Source of the DNA: Nitrospira lenta
GTDB taxonomy: Bacteria > Nitrospirota > Nitrospiria > Nitrospirales > Nitrospiraceae
DNA length: 64,000 nt
Direction of reading: 5' to 3'
Assembly (NCBI RefSeq): GCF_900403705.1
Contig: NZ_OUNR01000012.1
Coordinates: 620,001-684,000 of the forward strand
Shown here: piece after piece, positions 56,657-64,000 of the stretch
Layout: each line of letters starts with the position of its first letter
Position numbering within the stretch: the stretch's first letter is position 1
The notes under the pieces: model-generated
Told to the model about the DNA's origin: nothing
Databases searched by the model: none
The model's input: the letters and a program-made list of their open reading frames with translations, nothing else
Made by a program: the position numbers and the translations under genes

Positions 56657-58480
56657 CTACCCGTTGGCGCGCTTTTCCTCCAGCGTCGTCCAGCGGGCAT
56701 AGAGTTGTTCGACGTTGGTCTGGGCCTCTGCCAACGCGGTATACCGGGCTTGCAATGCCGTGGCGTCGGAGGTGACGGCAGGATCTTCCGTTGCGGCTTG
56801 GCAGGCGGCGACAGCGGCTTCCGCCTTGACGATCAAGCCTTCGATCTTGTCCCATTCCTTTTGTTCCGAATGGGAGAGCCCTTTACGAGCCTGTTTCGGT
56901 TTGGGGCCGTTGTTACTCGCGGCGCGGGTGGGCACAGGGCCGGAAAAGCCGGAGCGTCCTCGTTCCTGAGCCGCTTCCCATTGGGCAAAGTCGGCGAACC
57001 ACTCGGCGTTGCCTGTTCCATCCAGCGCCAGCATCATCGTAGAGACTCGATCGAGCAGCCAGCGGTCATGCGTCACGAGGATCAGCGCGCCGGGAAACTC
57101 CAGAAGATTTTCTTCCAACACGTCGAGGGTCGGGATATCCAAATCGTTTGTTGGTTCATCCAGCATGAGCACATCGGCCGGTTGCAACATGAGCCGCGCG
57201 ATCAAGAGCCGGGCCTGTTCGCCGCCGGAGAGCCGGGACACGGGCAGATCGAGCTGTTCAGCCCGGAAGAGAAAGCGCTTTGCCCAGGACACCAGATGGA
57301 TCGAGCGATCCTGATAGATCACGGAATCGCCGCCCGCGGGCGCGAGGGATCGGCGGAGGGATACCTGTTGGTCCAGCGACTCCCGATGCTGCTCGAAGGT
57401 GACGATGCGAAGCTTGTCAGCGCGGGTGACGGTGCCGGTATCGGGTTTCAACGTGCCGGCCAGCAGTTTCATCAGCGTGGATTTTCCGCTGCCGTTCGGG
57501 CCGAGCAGGCCCAGCCGTTGGCCGGGACCCAGAATGAGCTCGAGATCCTTGACGATCTGCTGGGACCCCAGTGTCTTGCCCAACTGCTGGGCGACGATCA
57601 ACTGTTTGGATTTGCGCCCGGAGGCCGTGAAGTCGATTCCGGCCGGGGCCAGCTCGCGGCGGCCGTCGCGGTCCGCCAGGTCGCTGATCAGGACGCCGGC
57701 GGCGTCGATGCGGGCTTTGGCTTTGGTGGTGCGCGCTTTTGGGCCGCGGCGAAGCCACTCGACTTCGCGGCGGACTTTATTGGCGAGGGTCGCGTGTTCG
57801 TTCGCCTGGGCTTCGAGGTTGGCCTCGCGCGCTTCCAGAAAATCGCTGTAGCGGCCAGTGGCTTCGAACCGGCCCTGCGGATAAATCCGATTGAGTTCGA
57901 TCATCCGCTCCGCTACCGCTTCGAGGAAGCGCCGGTCGTGGCTGATGATGAGGTAGGCGCGGGTTTCGGATTTCAAGAGCTGTTCGAGCCAGAGAATGCC
58001 CTCGACGTCTAAATGGTTCGTCGGCTCGTCCATCATCAACACATCCGGCTCCATCAGGAGGGAGCGGGCGATCGCGAGACGCTTTTTCCATCCTCCTGAG
58101 AGCGTCCGCACGGGATGCTCGGAGTCGGGGAATTCCCCCAGGCTCAAGGCACGGGCGATGCGGCCGCTTTCTTCGTGCGGATCCAGTCCTTCCTCGCGCA
58201 GGGTCTGCGCCAACACGTCTTCCACCGTCAGGTCCGGCGGGAAGGTGGATTCCTGCGGCACGTAACTCAGGCGGACATGGCGGCGCAGAGAGCGGGTGCC
58301 GTCGTCAGGGTCTTCAATGCCGGCAAGAATTTTCAACAGCGTGGATTTGCCGGACCCGTTCGGGCCGATGAGTCCGACGCGATCCCCTTCGGCCAGACCG
58401 ATGGATAGGTCTGAAAAGAGCGGCTTCACGCCATAGCTCTTGCTGATGGACTCACAACTCAGGAGCATAATTGGTGGCAT
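56657..58480 (-). CDS. uup: ABC-F family ATPase, Uup-like
   Basis: 607 residues from ATG 58480. Two ATPase domains, each with GPNGSGKST (Walker A) and LSGG signature (LSGGWKKR, LSGGEQARLL), Walker B in MMDEPTNHLD and MLDEPTNDLD, and a linker between. A C-terminal coiled coil (about 530-607) is typical of Uup. No membrane part: a cytosolic translation or DNA-linked factor. It is minus strand between mscS and the response regulator. Confidence 0.92.
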   Translation of the reverse strand: MPPIMLLSCESISKSYGVKPLFSDLSIGLAEGDRVGLIGPNGSGKSTLLKILAGIEDPDDGTRSLRRHVRLSYVPQESTFPPDLTVEDVLAQTLREEGLDPHEESGRIARALSLGEFPDSEHPVRTLSGGWKKRLAIARSLLMEPDVLMMDEPTNHLDVEGILWLEQLLKSETRAYLIISHDRRFLEAVAERMIELNRIYPQGRFEATGRYSDFLEAREANLEAQANEHATLANKVRREVEWLRRGPKARTTKAKARIDAAGVLISDLADRDGRRELAPAGIDFTASGRKSKQLIVAQQLGKTLGSQQIVKDLELILGPGQRLGLLGPNGSGKSTLMKLLAGTLKPDTGTVTRADKLRIVTFEQHRESLDQQVSLRRSLAPAGGDSVIYQDRSIHLVSWAKRFLFRAEQLDLPVSRLSGGEQARLLIARLMLQPADVLMLDEPTNDLDIPTLDVLEENLLEFPGALILVTHDRWLLDRVSTMMLALDGTGNAEWFADFAQWEAAQERGRSGFSGPVPTRAASNNGPKPKQARKGLSHSEQKEWDKIEGLIVKAEAAVAACQAATEDPAVTSDATALQARYTALAEAQTNVEQLYARWTTLEEKRANG

Positions 58481-58628
58481 AGATCGTCGATCTGTATCCG
58501 GATTGGCCAAGATGTCAGGTGTCGTCGTCGGGAGAGGATTCTACCTGGCAGACACGTTCGTTGCCCCACAGTGTAGCAAGGGACGGGCATGGCTTACTAG
58601 GTGTAGCGTGGCGCGGGCGAAGATAAAG

Positions 58629-59546: not shown

Positions 59547-61085
59547 ATGATGGGCAGCGTGTGGTGGAAGCAGGCGGTTCTCGTCATGAGCGCGGTGATG
59601 GCCAACGGGTGTCTGGTCCAGCCGTATGTGTTGACGAAGGATGATGTGCGGGCACGTGTGACCAGCGACATGAAAGCGTTGATGGCCATCGAAGAGCCGG
59701 TGGCGGGGCCGATCGATCTCTATGGGGCGACCGCCCGGGCGCTCAAGTACAACCTCGATGCCAGAGTGAAAACCATGCAGGCGCAGCTGGCGCATCAGCA
59801 ATTGAACGTCGCGCACTACACCTTGTTGCCGCAGGTCTCGGCCAATGCCGGGTTCGACGGGCGCAATAACTATAGCGGCGGCGGTGCCCGTTCACTCATC
59901 GACGGCCGTCCGGTCCTTGAGCCGTTTACCTCGTCCGACAAAAACGTCACCTCCGGCAATCTGGCGTTGAGCTGGGATGTGCTGGATTTCGGGTTGTCGT
60001 TCGTCCGGGCGCAACAGGCGGCGGACAACGTGATGATCGCGGAAGAGGAAAAGCGGCGGATTGCCGTACGGCTGGTGCAGGATGTTCGGAGCGCCTATTG
60101 GCGGGCGGTCAGCGCGGAACGCGTGCTCCATCGGGTGGAGTTTCTCAACGAATCGGTGGGAAAAGCGCTGGAGAGTTCCCAGCAGATCGTCGACAAGAAG
60201 TTGCAGGCGCCGTTGACGCCGCTGAACTACCGCCGCGACCTGCTCAATATTCAGCGTGAGGTGCAGCGGCTGTATCGTGACCTCAGCACGGCGCGGACGC
60301 AGCTGGCATCGATGATGGGGCTGCCGCCGGGGACAATCTATGAACTTGCTGTGCCGGCCAGGACCGGGAACGTTCCGCTCGTGAATCTGGATACGGAAAG
60401 CATGGAGAAGCAGGCCTTGATGTTCCGGGCCGAGCTGCGGTCGATCGACTATCAGAAGCGGATCAGTGCCAAGGAAGCCCGTGCGGTATTTTTGGAATTG
60501 TTCCCCAGTCTCAAATTGAGCGTCGGCGGCTATTACAGCAGCAACAGCTTCTTTCTCTATCAGAACTGGCTGGGGTACGCCTCTCAGGCCAGTTGGAATC
60601 TGCTGTCTGCGTTTCGCACGCCGGCGAAATTGAAAGCCGTGGAGGCTCATCGGGAGGTGTTGGAGTCGCAAAGCCTCGCGCTCACCATGGCGATCCTGAC
60701 GGAAGTGCATGTTGGGGCCGTGCAATTCGTCCATGCGAAACAGGAATTTCAGAACGCACGGCAATATCACGAGACTCAATCCGCGATTGCCGAGCACACC
60801 AGAAGTCTCTGGCTCACCCATAGCACGAACGACCTTACGCTGATAAAGGAGCGGGTGAACGATGTCTTGGCCGAGGTCCGGCTGGACAGCGCGCAATCGG
60901 GCGTCGAGACCGCCTATGCGACCTTGATGGCGTCGTTGGGGGAGGACGCGGTTCCGGCAGGTCTCGGCGGACAGAGCGTGGCTGAGTTGGCCGAGGCATT
61001 GAAGAAACTCTGGGAGCCGACGGGACCGCGGACGGCCAGCGTCGAAAAGAAATCGGAGATCTATGCAACCTCTGTGGCGCGCTAG
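59547..61085 (+). CDS. TolC-like outer-membrane efflux lipoprotein
   Basis: 512 residues. A lipoprotein signal ends in MANGC. Two TolC repeats follow (IDLYGATARALKYNLDARVK, LPQVSANAGFDGRNNYSGGG, then ALMFRAELRSIDYQKRISAK and LFPSLKLSVGGYYSSNSF), with long coiled-coil helices. It forms the outer-membrane channel for the export operon. It overlaps the next adaptor gene by 23 bases. Starts ATG 59547 or 59550. Confidence 0.92.
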   Translation: MMGSVWWKQAVLVMSAVMANGCLVQPYVLTKDDVRARVTSDMKALMAIEEPVAGPIDLYGATARALKYNLDARVKTMQAQLAHQQLNVAHYTLLPQVSANAGFDGRNNYSGGGARSLIDGRPVLEPFTSSDKNVTSGNLALSWDVLDFGLSFVRAQQAADNVMIAEEEKRRIAVRLVQDVRSAYWRAVSAERVLHRVEFLNESVGKALESSQQIVDKKLQAPLTPLNYRRDLLNIQREVQRLYRDLSTARTQLASMMGLPPGTIYELAVPARTGNVPLVNLDTESMEKQALMFRAELRSIDYQKRISAKEARAVFLELFPSLKLSVGGYYSSNSFFLYQNWLGYASQASWNLLSAFRTPAKLKAVEAHREVLESQSLALTMAILTEVHVGAVQFVHAKQEFQNARQYHETQSAIAEHTRSLWLTHSTNDLTLIKERVNDVLAEVRLDSAQSGVETAYATLMASLGEDAVPAGLGGQSVAELAEALKKLWEPTGPRTASVEKKSEIYATSVAR

Positions 61086-61848
61086 CGGCACTGTCATCGC
61101 GGCGTTGGTCTTGTCGGTGGCCATCGTGCCGCAGGCCGGCTGGCCCAAAGGCGAGCGGCCTGCCGCGGTGGTGCGATCGGGGAACGGCGTGATGCGCGGC
61201 ATTGTCAGAGCCGCCACACAAGCTATGCTCTATACCCAAATCCAAGGACGGGTTAGCGCACTCCCGCGCAAGGAAGGTGAGCGAATCGAGAAGGGGGAAA
61301 CGCTGGTCCAGATCGATTGCAATAAGTACCGGGCCGAGCTGGCCGCGGCGGTTGCCGAGTCTCAGGTCAAAGACAAAACGTTCACCAATAATACGGAGCT
61401 TGCAAAGCTGAACGCCGTGAGCACGCTCGAACTGGAAATTTCCGAAGCCGAAACCAAAAAGGCTCAGGCCGCCATCCGTATTGCCGAATTAAGCGTCGGA
61501 AACTGCCGCATTGCCGCGCCCTTTTCCGGCCGTATTACCGGCGTCATGGTGAATGAGCATGAGAACGTGTTTCCGAACGACAAGTTGCTCAGCCTGCTGG
61601 ACGATACGAGCCTGGAAATCGAACTGGTGCTGCCGTCGTCGTCGCTGGCCTGGCTCAAACGAAAGGCCCGCTTCACCTTCGCGATCGATGAGACGCGCAA
61701 GGAGTATCCGGCGAAAGTGAAAGAGATCGGTGCCAACATCGATCCGGCAAGCCAGACGGTCAAGGTCATCGGAGCTTTTGAAAAGTTGCCGCCCGAAGTC
61801 CTGGCCGGTATGAGCGGCTCCGCGCAATTCCCAACCATGCAGCCGTAG
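61063..61848 (+). CDS. HlyD/RND-type periplasmic adaptor
   Basis: 261 residues, short for the family. A signal or anchor helix (TVIAALVLSVAIVPQAG) is followed by a lipoyl-like half (YTQIQGRVSALPRKEGERIE), a coiled coil and the second half (CRIAAPFSGRITGVMVNEHE). It links an inner-membrane partner to the TolC-like channel. ATG 61063 lies inside the end of the TolC-like gene, so the two are coupled. Confidence 0.9.
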   Translation: MQPLWRASGTVIAALVLSVAIVPQAGWPKGERPAAVVRSGNGVMRGIVRAATQAMLYTQIQGRVSALPRKEGERIEKGETLVQIDCNKYRAELAAAVAESQVKDKTFTNNTELAKLNAVSTLELEISEAETKKAQAAIRIAELSVGNCRIAAPFSGRITGVMVNEHENVFPNDKLLSLLDDTSLEIELVLPSSSLAWLKRKARFTFAIDETRKEYPAKVKEIGANIDPASQTVKVIGAFEKLPPEVLAGMSGSAQFPTMQP

Positions 61849-61852
61849 CCCG

Positions 61853-63214
61853 ATGGCCACCACAACTGCACCAACCGCACAACAGATTCCCGCGCTCATC
61901 CACCTGGCGGCGCTGGCGCATCTGGAAGGGCAAGTCCGTGCCGCCAAGACGCTCCCGGAGCTGCAATTTCTCGCCGTCAACGAAACCCGCCGCTTGGTGC
62001 CTTATCAGCAAGCCTTCCTGCTGACCTGGGGGAATGGCACGGCGGCTTGTCAGGTCGCCACGGCTGCCAGCGTGGCGGTCGTCGAGCGGGAGGCGCCGTT
62101 GATCCGGTGGTTGGAACAGGTGGCGCAGGCGCTTCGGCAGGAGCATCCGGGCGGCGAACCGATGGCACTGACCGAAGAGGCCTGTCCGGCATCCTGCCGC
62201 GAGGGGTGGCGGGAGTATGTGCAGGGCTATGTCTTCTGGTGTCCGCTGAAACATCCCGATGAAACCGTGCTGGGCGTCTGGTGGTTCGAACGGGAGTTTC
62301 CCTGGCAGGAGAACGATGTCGCCATCGTCCATCGCTTGGCCTGCAGCTATGCCTATGCGTGGAAAGCGCTGACGAAGAAATCCGGCGGATGGTTTGCCAC
62401 GATGAAGAAACCGTCCGCCTGGCTTGTCGGCCTGGCGGTGATCGGGGCGCTGTGCGTGCCGGTGCGGGTCTCGACCATGGCGCCGGTGAAAGTCATGGCC
62501 AAGGATCCCGTGATTGTGAGCGCGCCGATGGATGGGGTCATTGCCGACGTGCTGGTGCCGCCGAATACGATGGTGCTTCAGGACCGGATCCTGTTCCGCT
62601 ATGAAGACACGAATATCCGCAATCAGTTTCAGGTTGCCGACAAACAACTGGCGGTGGCCCGCGCGGAACATGCCCAGGCGGTGCAGGGGGGATTCGCCGA
62701 CCCCCAGCGCAAAGCCGATGCGCCCTTGAAAGAGGCGGAGGCCTCGCTGAAAGAAACCGAGCGCGATTATGCGCAAGAGATGCTGGAGCAGATCGACGTC
62801 CGTGCGCCGCAAACGGGCTTGCTGCTGTACACCAACAAAGCCGATTGGGTCGGGAAGCCGGTTTCAGTCGGCGAACGGGTGATGGAAATCGCTGACCCTC
62901 AGCGGCTGGAATTGCGCATCGACCTGCCCGTCAGCGACGCGTTGATGCTGAAAGACGGGGCCGAGGTGGTGGCGTTCTTTGATGCGTTGCCGTTGGAGTC
63001 CTTCCCGGCGACTGTGAGCCGGGCGAGCTATCATGCCGAGGTGTTGCCGGGCGATGTGCTGGCCTATCGGGTGCTGGCGGAGTTGCGTGGCGCCGACTCG
63101 CGGCTCCGCATCGGCTGGCAGGGCTCGGCTAAAGTCTACGGCGAGCGTGGCCCGCTCGCCTTCCTGCTGTTCCGTCGTCCGTTGACGGCGTTGCGGCAAC
63201 TGTTGGGAGTCTGA
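61853..63214 (+). CDS. HlyD-type adaptor with GAF-like N-terminal half
   Basis: 453 residues. Residues 1-180 look GAF-like (LPELQFLAVNETRRLVPYQQ, REGWREYVQGYVFWCPLKHP, VLGVWWFERE, WQENDVAIVHRLACSYAYAW). A membrane helix (about 190-208) follows, then a lipoyl pair (VIVSAPMDGVIADVLVPPNT and IDVRAPQTGLLLYT) and a beta-barrel. The cytosolic GAF half may sense a small molecule. It starts 4 bases after the first adaptor. This fusion is unusual. Confidence 0.85.
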   Translation: MATTTAPTAQQIPALIHLAALAHLEGQVRAAKTLPELQFLAVNETRRLVPYQQAFLLTWGNGTAACQVATAASVAVVEREAPLIRWLEQVAQALRQEHPGGEPMALTEEACPASCREGWREYVQGYVFWCPLKHPDETVLGVWWFEREFPWQENDVAIVHRLACSYAYAWKALTKKSGGWFATMKKPSAWLVGLAVIGALCVPVRVSTMAPVKVMAKDPVIVSAPMDGVIADVLVPPNTMVLQDRILFRYEDTNIRNQFQVADKQLAVARAEHAQAVQGGFADPQRKADAPLKEAEASLKETERDYAQEMLEQIDVRAPQTGLLLYTNKADWVGKPVSVGERVMEIADPQRLELRIDLPVSDALMLKDGAEVVAFFDALPLESFPATVSRASYHAEVLPGDVLAYRVLAELRGADSRLRIGWQGSAKVYGERGPLAFLLFRRPLTALRQLLGV

Positions 63215-63217
63215 CCC

Positions 63218-64000
63218 ATGCCGAGCCTGCCGCCCGCGCCAGCCTCGAAAGAGCGGGCGCTCCCCGTCCTCAGGACGAACGTCGAGTTCCTCCGTGGCGC
63301 GCCGACTCCCGAGGGGGTGCCGACCTGGACGATCGTTGATCCGGTCCGCAACAAGTATTTCCAGATCGAATGGCCGGTCTATCAACTGTTGCAGCGGTGG
63401 TCGTGCGGCACCATGGAACAGCTGGTGGAGACCATGCGGGAGGAAACGACCGCCCGGATCACGCGGGAGGATGTCGAGGATCTCATCAAGTTTCTCTACG
63501 CCAACAATTTGACCGAAGAGTCGGCGAGTGGGCAGACGAAAGACTTCGTCGACCAGGCGAACGCGCGCAAGCAGGCCTGGTGGCAATGGCTGTTGCATCA
63601 TTATTTATTCATCAAAATTCCGCTCGTCCATCCCCACGGCTTTCTTCAGGCCACGCTGCCGCTGGTGGCGCCGTTCTATACCGCGGCGGCGGCCTGGGTG
63701 TTCGGGACAATCGGAGCGGTCGGACTCGTGCTCGTCAGCCGGCAGTGGGACGCGTTTCTCTCGACCTTCCTTCACTTTTTCAACTGGCGCGGCGCAGTGC
63801 TGTACGGTGTCGTGCTGTGTCTCGTCAAAGTCGTCCACGAATTGGGGCATGCCTATACCGCGACGCGGTTCGGTTGCCGCGTGCCGACGATCGGCGTGGC
63901 GCTCATGGTCATGATGCCGGTGCTCTATTCCGACGTCAGCGACTCCTACCGGCTGCATGCCAAGCGGAAACGGTTGGGGATCGCCGCCGCCGGCGTGATC
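63218..64000 (+). CDS. M50-type membrane metalloprotease with PqqD-like N-terminus (cut by window end)
   Basis: At least 261 residues, open at the window edge. Residues about 20-100 (TWTIVDPVRNKYFQIEWPVY, TMEQLVETMREETTARITRE, DVEDLIKFLYANNLTEES) look like a PqqD/RRE winged helix. Membrane helices follow, with the zinc motif in VKVVHELGHAYTATRFGCRV (HELGH 207-211) and a MMPVLYSDVSDSYRL block. It sits 3 bases after the second adaptor, in one operon with TolC and HlyD proteins. Such HlyD/M50 sets are suspected peptide exporters. Confidence 0.85.
   Translation, partial: MPSLPPAPASKERALPVLRTNVEFLRGAPTPEGVPTWTIVDPVRNKYFQIEWPVYQLLQRWSCGTMEQLVETMREETTARITREDVEDLIKFLYANNLTEESASGQTKDFVDQANARKQAWWQWLLHHYLFIKIPLVHPHGFLQATLPLVAPFYTAAAAWVFGTIGAVGLVLVSRQWDAFLSTFLHFFNWRGAVLYGVVLCLVKVVHELGHAYTATRFGCRVPTIGVALMVMMPVLYSDVSDSYRLHAKRKRLGIAAAGVI

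Follow-up and report, generated by a model that had tools for sequence, protein, structure and literature searches.

A four-gene operon of Nitrospira lenta with an RRE-bearing M50 protease: a candidate secretion system for giant LEPR-XLL/DUF4347 proteins

What does an export operon move out of the cell if it encodes a TolC-like channel, periplasmic adaptors and an intramembrane protease, and no ABC transporter? Four such genes lie at the end of the 64,000-nucleotide stretch of the Nitrospira lenta genome analysed here (the window; contig C12, positions 620001-684000). The first-pass annotation had read them as a machine that processes and exports a ribosomal peptide, with the protease in the place of the transporter and the GAF half as a possible sensor. 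We extended the reading past position 64,000 to the end of the contig. This completed the M50 protease gene, which encodes 712 aa and ends at C12:685356, 1,356 bases beyond the window, and it made the next large gene of the same strand visible. In window coordinates, the features of the operon are:

59547..61085, + strand: TolC-like outer-membrane channel of the OEP family, 512 aa (Pfam OEP, 4.4e-28)
61063..61848, + strand: short periplasmic adaptor of the HlyD/RND_mfp family, 261 aa (HlyD_3, 1.5e-19; TIGR01730, 9.9e-36)
61853..63214, + strand: protein of 453 aa with a GAF-like cytosolic half, one transmembrane helix and an HlyD adaptor half (HlyD_3, 1.4e-10)
61910..62392, + strand: GAF-like half of the 453-aa protein, borders approximate (from orthologues and the paralogous branch)
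63218..64000, + strand: RRE-M50-HlyD fusion, first 261 of 712 codons (Peptidase_M50; NF041824, 3e-51; Foldseek)
63284..63511, + strand: predicted RRE/PqqD-fold domain of the fusion, residues about 23-98, beta-beta-beta-alpha-alpha-alpha (AlphaFold model, pLDDT 84)
63836..63850, + strand: M50 zinc-binding motif HELGH, residues 207-211 (HExxH conservation)
beyond the window, + strand: third zinc ligand motif NPLMRFDG, residues 303-310 (D309 invariant)

The tight packing described from the window was confirmed by the open reading frames: the first two genes overlap by 23 bases, and gaps of 4 and 3 bases follow. A scan of GTDB genomes yielded 80 orthologous loci from Nitrospirota, several proteobacterial classes, Desulfobacterota-type genomes and Campylobacteraceae. 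The order TolC-HlyD-GAF/HlyD-M50 was kept in all 62 loci that have the four genes as separate open reading frames, which excludes a chance origin of the operon. A TolC-like orthologue adjoins the M50 gene in 63 of the 80 fetched loci, the short HlyD adaptor was found in 70 and the GAF/HlyD protein in 73-75. Upstream, on the - strand of the window (56657-58510), a gene encodes an ABC protein that has two ATPase domains but lacks an obvious membrane portion; it is ABC-F-like by appearance and offers no transporter partner for the adaptors.

The first gene had been called a TolC-like lipoprotein. Its OEP match established the TolC-like identity; that the protein is a lipoprotein is plausible, given a weak lipobox-like sequence (MANGC) near its N-terminus. 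The second gene encodes a short adaptor, as had been stated, by its HlyD_3 match. The third protein, with its transmembrane helix at about residues 191-209, had been described as a GAF-like/adaptor fusion. Here the adaptor half held, while the GAF half gave no Pfam match in the N. lenta protein itself; the domain was matched in 5 of 17 orthologues (best 6.8e-5) and strongly in the corresponding protein of a paralogous branch (1.6e-10). With the HlyD halves of the 261-aa, 453-aa and M50 proteins, three of the four proteins thus carry adaptor domains, and the fourth is the TolC channel.

The M50 protein, which shares 73% identity with its counterpart in Ca. Nitrospira defluvii, has three parts: an N-terminal domain with a predicted RRE/PqqD fold, an M50 membrane protease (core at residues about 130-440) and a C-terminal HlyD/MacA-type adaptor (residues about 443-690), which Foldseek matched to MacA and MexA adaptors. 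The C-terminal HlyD barrel is encoded past the end of the window, where the first-pass annotation could not see it. The protease core shows both the HExxH motif and the third ligand in NPxxxxDG that characterize site-2 proteases. HExxH is kept in 31 of 31 Nitrospirota homologues among the matches listed, and H207, E208, H211 and D309 are invariant in A1 and A3.

A PqqD-like character had been claimed for the N-terminal domain. PF05402 (PqqD) matched it weakly (E=0.18) and was found in 7 of 32 homologues (best 1.4e-4); a profile search against PDB sequences gave TbiB1 as the only match (E=1). Since the Pfam result alone was weak, we made a structure model. Foldseek analysis of the full-length model returned adaptors as all 50 best matches and was uninformative on the RRE part, and we therefore modelled the isolated domain. 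Its seven best PDB matches were all RREs: four chains came from TbiB1, a lasso-peptide RRE whose structure includes the leader peptide, and three from CteB, an RRE-containing sactipeptide enzyme. TbiB1 with its leader matched with a probability of 1.00 and TM scores of 0.55/0.67, at E-values that were modest throughout (0.017 at best). Thus, the model supports an RRE/PqqD fold for this domain.

The same combination of an RRE with an intramembrane M50 protease is found in MpaP of the daptide pathway, an RRE-dependent peptidase that removes the leader (PMC10036551). Among curated families the daptide protease came nearest: its model NF041824 aligned with residues 38-403 of the M50 protein at 174.7 bits, which is below the equivalog cutoff of 300 bits. 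Unlike MpaP, the M50 protein is fused to an HlyD adaptor and lies within an export operon with a giant protein, and no other daptide genes were seen beside it.

That giant protein is encoded by the gene that follows the M50 gene on the same strand, an open reading frame of at least 1,370 aa that is cut by the contig end. It carries an N-terminal SLEPRLMFDAAAAATAA motif, a DUF4347 domain (2.4e-56) and cadherin repeats, and its first 300 residues contain no hydrophobic segment. The LEPR-XLL model NF012209 scored 13.4 bits in the whole-protein scan and 18.1 bits in the genome scan (cutoff 17 bits). A TIGR04255-family gene on the - strand (L002:8380-9243, just past the window) sits between the M50 and the cargo gene; this family was matched in only one of the 80 other loci. 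Rfam gave no match on the stretch downstream of the window. In most relatives a few hundred bases separate the M50 gene from the start of a giant LEPR/DUF4347 gene, with the DUF4347 domain usually beginning 0.5-1.8 kb downstream on the same strand, and 64 of the 80 loci contain a giant acidic repeat open reading frame by a composition heuristic. Some exporter loci showed no detectable DUF4347, either because the cargo N-terminus lies beyond the fetched stretch or because the cargo is a different one.

The presumptive cargos of the orthologous loci (class A) share the N-terminal pattern SLLSLE[P/S/Q]R[L/I]MFD[A/G]AAxATA. The motif was present, without a strongly hydrophobic segment, in 71 distinct cargo N-termini, counted by a regular expression in which the LExR core is preset, so that only the conservation of the flanks is independent of this core. 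These flanks are conserved: 64 of 68 class A cargos have A at +11 or +12 together with T at +13. The median distance between the cargo start and the motif is 35 residues. A Sec signal peptide was not seen in the cargos of either branch, and the sequences suggest the LEPR-motif stretch as a candidate leader that would replace it.

The M50 protein and DUF4347 also occur together across genomes. Among 79 Nitrospirota genomes, DUF4347 was present in 32 of 33 with the M50 protein versus none of 46 without it (p=2.5e-21), and among 240 Alphaproteobacteria a strong DUF4347 match (over 150 bits, nine genomes) was present in 8 of 11 versus 1 of 229 (p=6e-12, or 1e-10 minus the seed genome), while NF012209 exceeded its cutoff in 19 of the 79 Nitrospirota genomes, all of them with an M50 protein of either branch (p=4e-8); all of these p-values were computed over related genomes, ignoring phylogeny. 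The repetition in two phyla is a better argument for the link than the p-values. Weaker DUF4347 proteins of Alphaproteobacteria also occur without the M50 protein.

N. lenta itself encodes a second RRE-M50-HlyD protein, in a paralogous locus on another contig:

C22:118000-137338: giant protein, DUF3467 protein, GAF-HlyD protein, RRE-M50-HlyD protein, SecA2, HlyD adaptor, TolC

The giant protein of this locus is cut by the contig end, and a LEPR N-terminus at C5:1613 may be its missing front. The M50 protein of this branch was found in eight Nitrospirota genomes, and a SecA2 paralogue in the same eight, directly beside the M50 gene. Three cargos of the branch start with LE[PG]R[VI]LLAADLTG, that is, with the LEPR-XLL motif; NF012209 matched one of them with 22.5 bits (cutoff 17), and PF07595 (Planc_extracel) aligned weakly at the LEPR place of one (E=0.41). 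Common to both branches is LExRx(L/M)(F/L)(D/A)A at the cargo start, and the cargo N-termini thus have the motif of the LEPR-XLL (NF012209) and DUF4347 (PF14252) proteins. In the SecA2 branch a gene for a small DUF3467 protein separates the cargo from the exporter (L007:15533-15961, L139, L140, L143), and such a gene also lies near three class A loci (L067, L070, L089); its product is possibly a cargo chaperone. In one relative (G010, L138:13628-18579), genes for an LssB/HlyB-like ABC exporter, an HlyD and a TolC-like protein were found about 20 kb from the SecA2-branch locus.

The SecA2 branch has been reported from Planctomycetes. The C22 locus fits the conserved SecA_DEAD/T1SS-related locus described, with no cargo given, by Kamneva, Poudel & Ward in 2015 (PMC4452313). 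Like the locus in the window, theirs combines an M50-HlyD fusion, a GAF-HlyD fusion and an HlyD adaptor with the lack of an ABC transporter; OEP/TolC is present in some of their loci and in ours. It differs by a secondary SecA_DEAD gene, whereas the window's locus has no SecA2 and a SecA match was obtained in none of the 80 orthologous loci. These authors proposed that the M50 protein is a pore and SecA2 its energy source, and called the broader biological role completely unknown; the words LEPR, PqqD and giant are absent from the main text.

We propose that the operon and the giant gene behind it probably serve to secrete giant repeat proteins of the LEPR-XLL/DUF4347 type, as a system dedicated to them. 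In place of a Sec signal peptide, these proteins would have a front-end leader, about 35 residues from the start. This leader would be bound by the cytosolic RRE domain and clipped in the membrane by the M50 core; since the daptide protease is a homologue of the protease half and MpaP removes a leader, docking and clipping are, by analogy, the most likely roles of the two parts. The HlyD parts of three proteins would form a periplasmic adaptor ring on the TolC channel, and the cargo would leave through this conduit. The class A locus encodes no energy source. Since the sister branch has retained a SecA2 of its own, the Sec channel offers the most economical way across the inner membrane; most likely, housekeeping SecA would serve the window's system and dedicated SecA2 the paralogous one. 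The more general proposal is a distinct pathway that exports giant proteins: an RRE like those of ribosomal-peptide enzymes reads their LEPR leader, an adaptor-fused intramembrane protease replaces the ABC transporter, and this scheme is common to both branches, the one that has a private SecA2 and the one that has none. We hold its chances to be about even.

The main rival to the Sec route is the idea suggested for the SecA2 branch by Kamneva et al. 2015 (PMC4452313). Here, the M50 protein itself would be the inner-membrane pore in place of an ABC transporter, and SecA2 or another ATPase would push the cargo without use of Sec. This fits a locus that has no ABC transporter, a multi-TM M50 core that continues directly into an adaptor, a SecA2 gene that always adjoins the M50 gene in its branch, and cargos without a Sec signal peptide. 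However, a pore of the class A branch would lack a dedicated motor, since SecA2 is absent there, and protein conduction is not known for the M50 site-2 protease fold. We consider an M50 pore unlikely, if still a serious alternative.

A second possibility concerns type I secretion. The operon resembles the systems for giant adhesins of the LapA and SiiE type in its TolC-HlyD conduit and giant acidic repeat cargo, but it differs in that there is no ABC transporter between or beside its four genes and in that the cargo is marked N-terminally, by the LEPR motif. The locus might instead be a processing or retention module, comparable to LapG/LapD acting on LapA, in which the M50 protease clips the cargo N-terminus to release or anchor it, the GAF domain senses a signal, and an ordinary type I system elsewhere exports the protein. 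A protease next to a GAF sensor-like domain is consistent with this, as are LssB-type ABC exporters in 36 of the 79 genomes, with a mild association with DUF4347 (p=0.001). Yet the operon has its own TolC and adaptors. Moreover, an LssB-type exporter was not found in 10 of 32 DUF4347 genomes, and models of the type I C-terminal target gave no match in six open reading frames taken as full-length orthologous cargos; an ordinary type I system is unlikely for these two reasons. N. lenta is among the ten genomes, with a best match of 328 bits from position 157, and such a system elsewhere in its genome was rejected as the cargo exporter. The retention module is thus rather improbable.

An export machine that has no ABC or RND partner and an RRE-bearing M50 protease in the place of the transporter, as the first-pass annotation had it, is supported. 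The peptide cargo of that reading has given way to the giant LEPR/DUF4347 protein. A RiPP-type system with an unseen small precursor would suit the predicted RRE/PqqD domain of the operon and the kinship between its protease half and the daptide protease. We read the region after the M50 gene for precursors, without a systematic screen of small open reading frames for leader motifs, and saw neither a precursor nor a radical SAM or other maturation gene next to the M50 gene of N. lenta; the neighbour is the giant protein. In most relatives the giant gene follows directly, so close that a precursor or maturation gene would hardly fit in between. With the near-perfect co-occurrence of M50 protein and DUF4347, the small-peptide reading becomes very improbable. 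Equally remote is an efflux pump for small molecules or metals that has its neighbours by coincidence: TolC and the RND-type adaptors match efflux models, but the locus has no RND, MFS or ABC pump and is associated with giant proteins in several phyla.

Complete copies of the system also occur on plasmids. A plasmid of Azospirillum argentinense Az39 has a DUF4347 gene (leader LEPRFMFDAAGAVTVAEV), an Ig-like gene and, as consecutive genes, those for TolC, two adaptors and the M50 protein. The Escherichia coli plasmid pABWA45_1, which is of IncF type and carries a complete copy, encodes a 4,457-aa Ig-like cargo (leader LESRQLFDGAALAETA) immediately upstream of the same set of four genes. The M50 gene was found in 24 of 5,426 complete E. 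coli genomes, and relatives also reside on Citrobacter plasmids. Since the intact system is thus present in cultured, genetically tractable bacteria, on Azospirillum plasmids and natural E. coli plasmids, the idea is testable at once.

Few bacterial gene products are larger than giant surface proteins. Already known is the parts list of the SecA2 sister branch; in the literature searched, we found no earlier description of the branch without SecA, of the link to the cargo, of the leader motif common to both branches or of the RRE assignment. Nor did this search, in which most subscription papers were outside reach, reveal a link of LEPR-XLL or DUF4347 to an exporter. LEPR-XLL/DUF4347 giant proteins, which had no assigned exporter in the literature found, are now linked to one machine, and a candidate leader and a candidate reader domain can be named for them. 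The finding is also relevant to the locus that its authors, in 2015, described as having a completely unknown role. If our proposal is true, giant proteins of several phyla would share LEPR-XLL/DUF4347 as a general signal for export.
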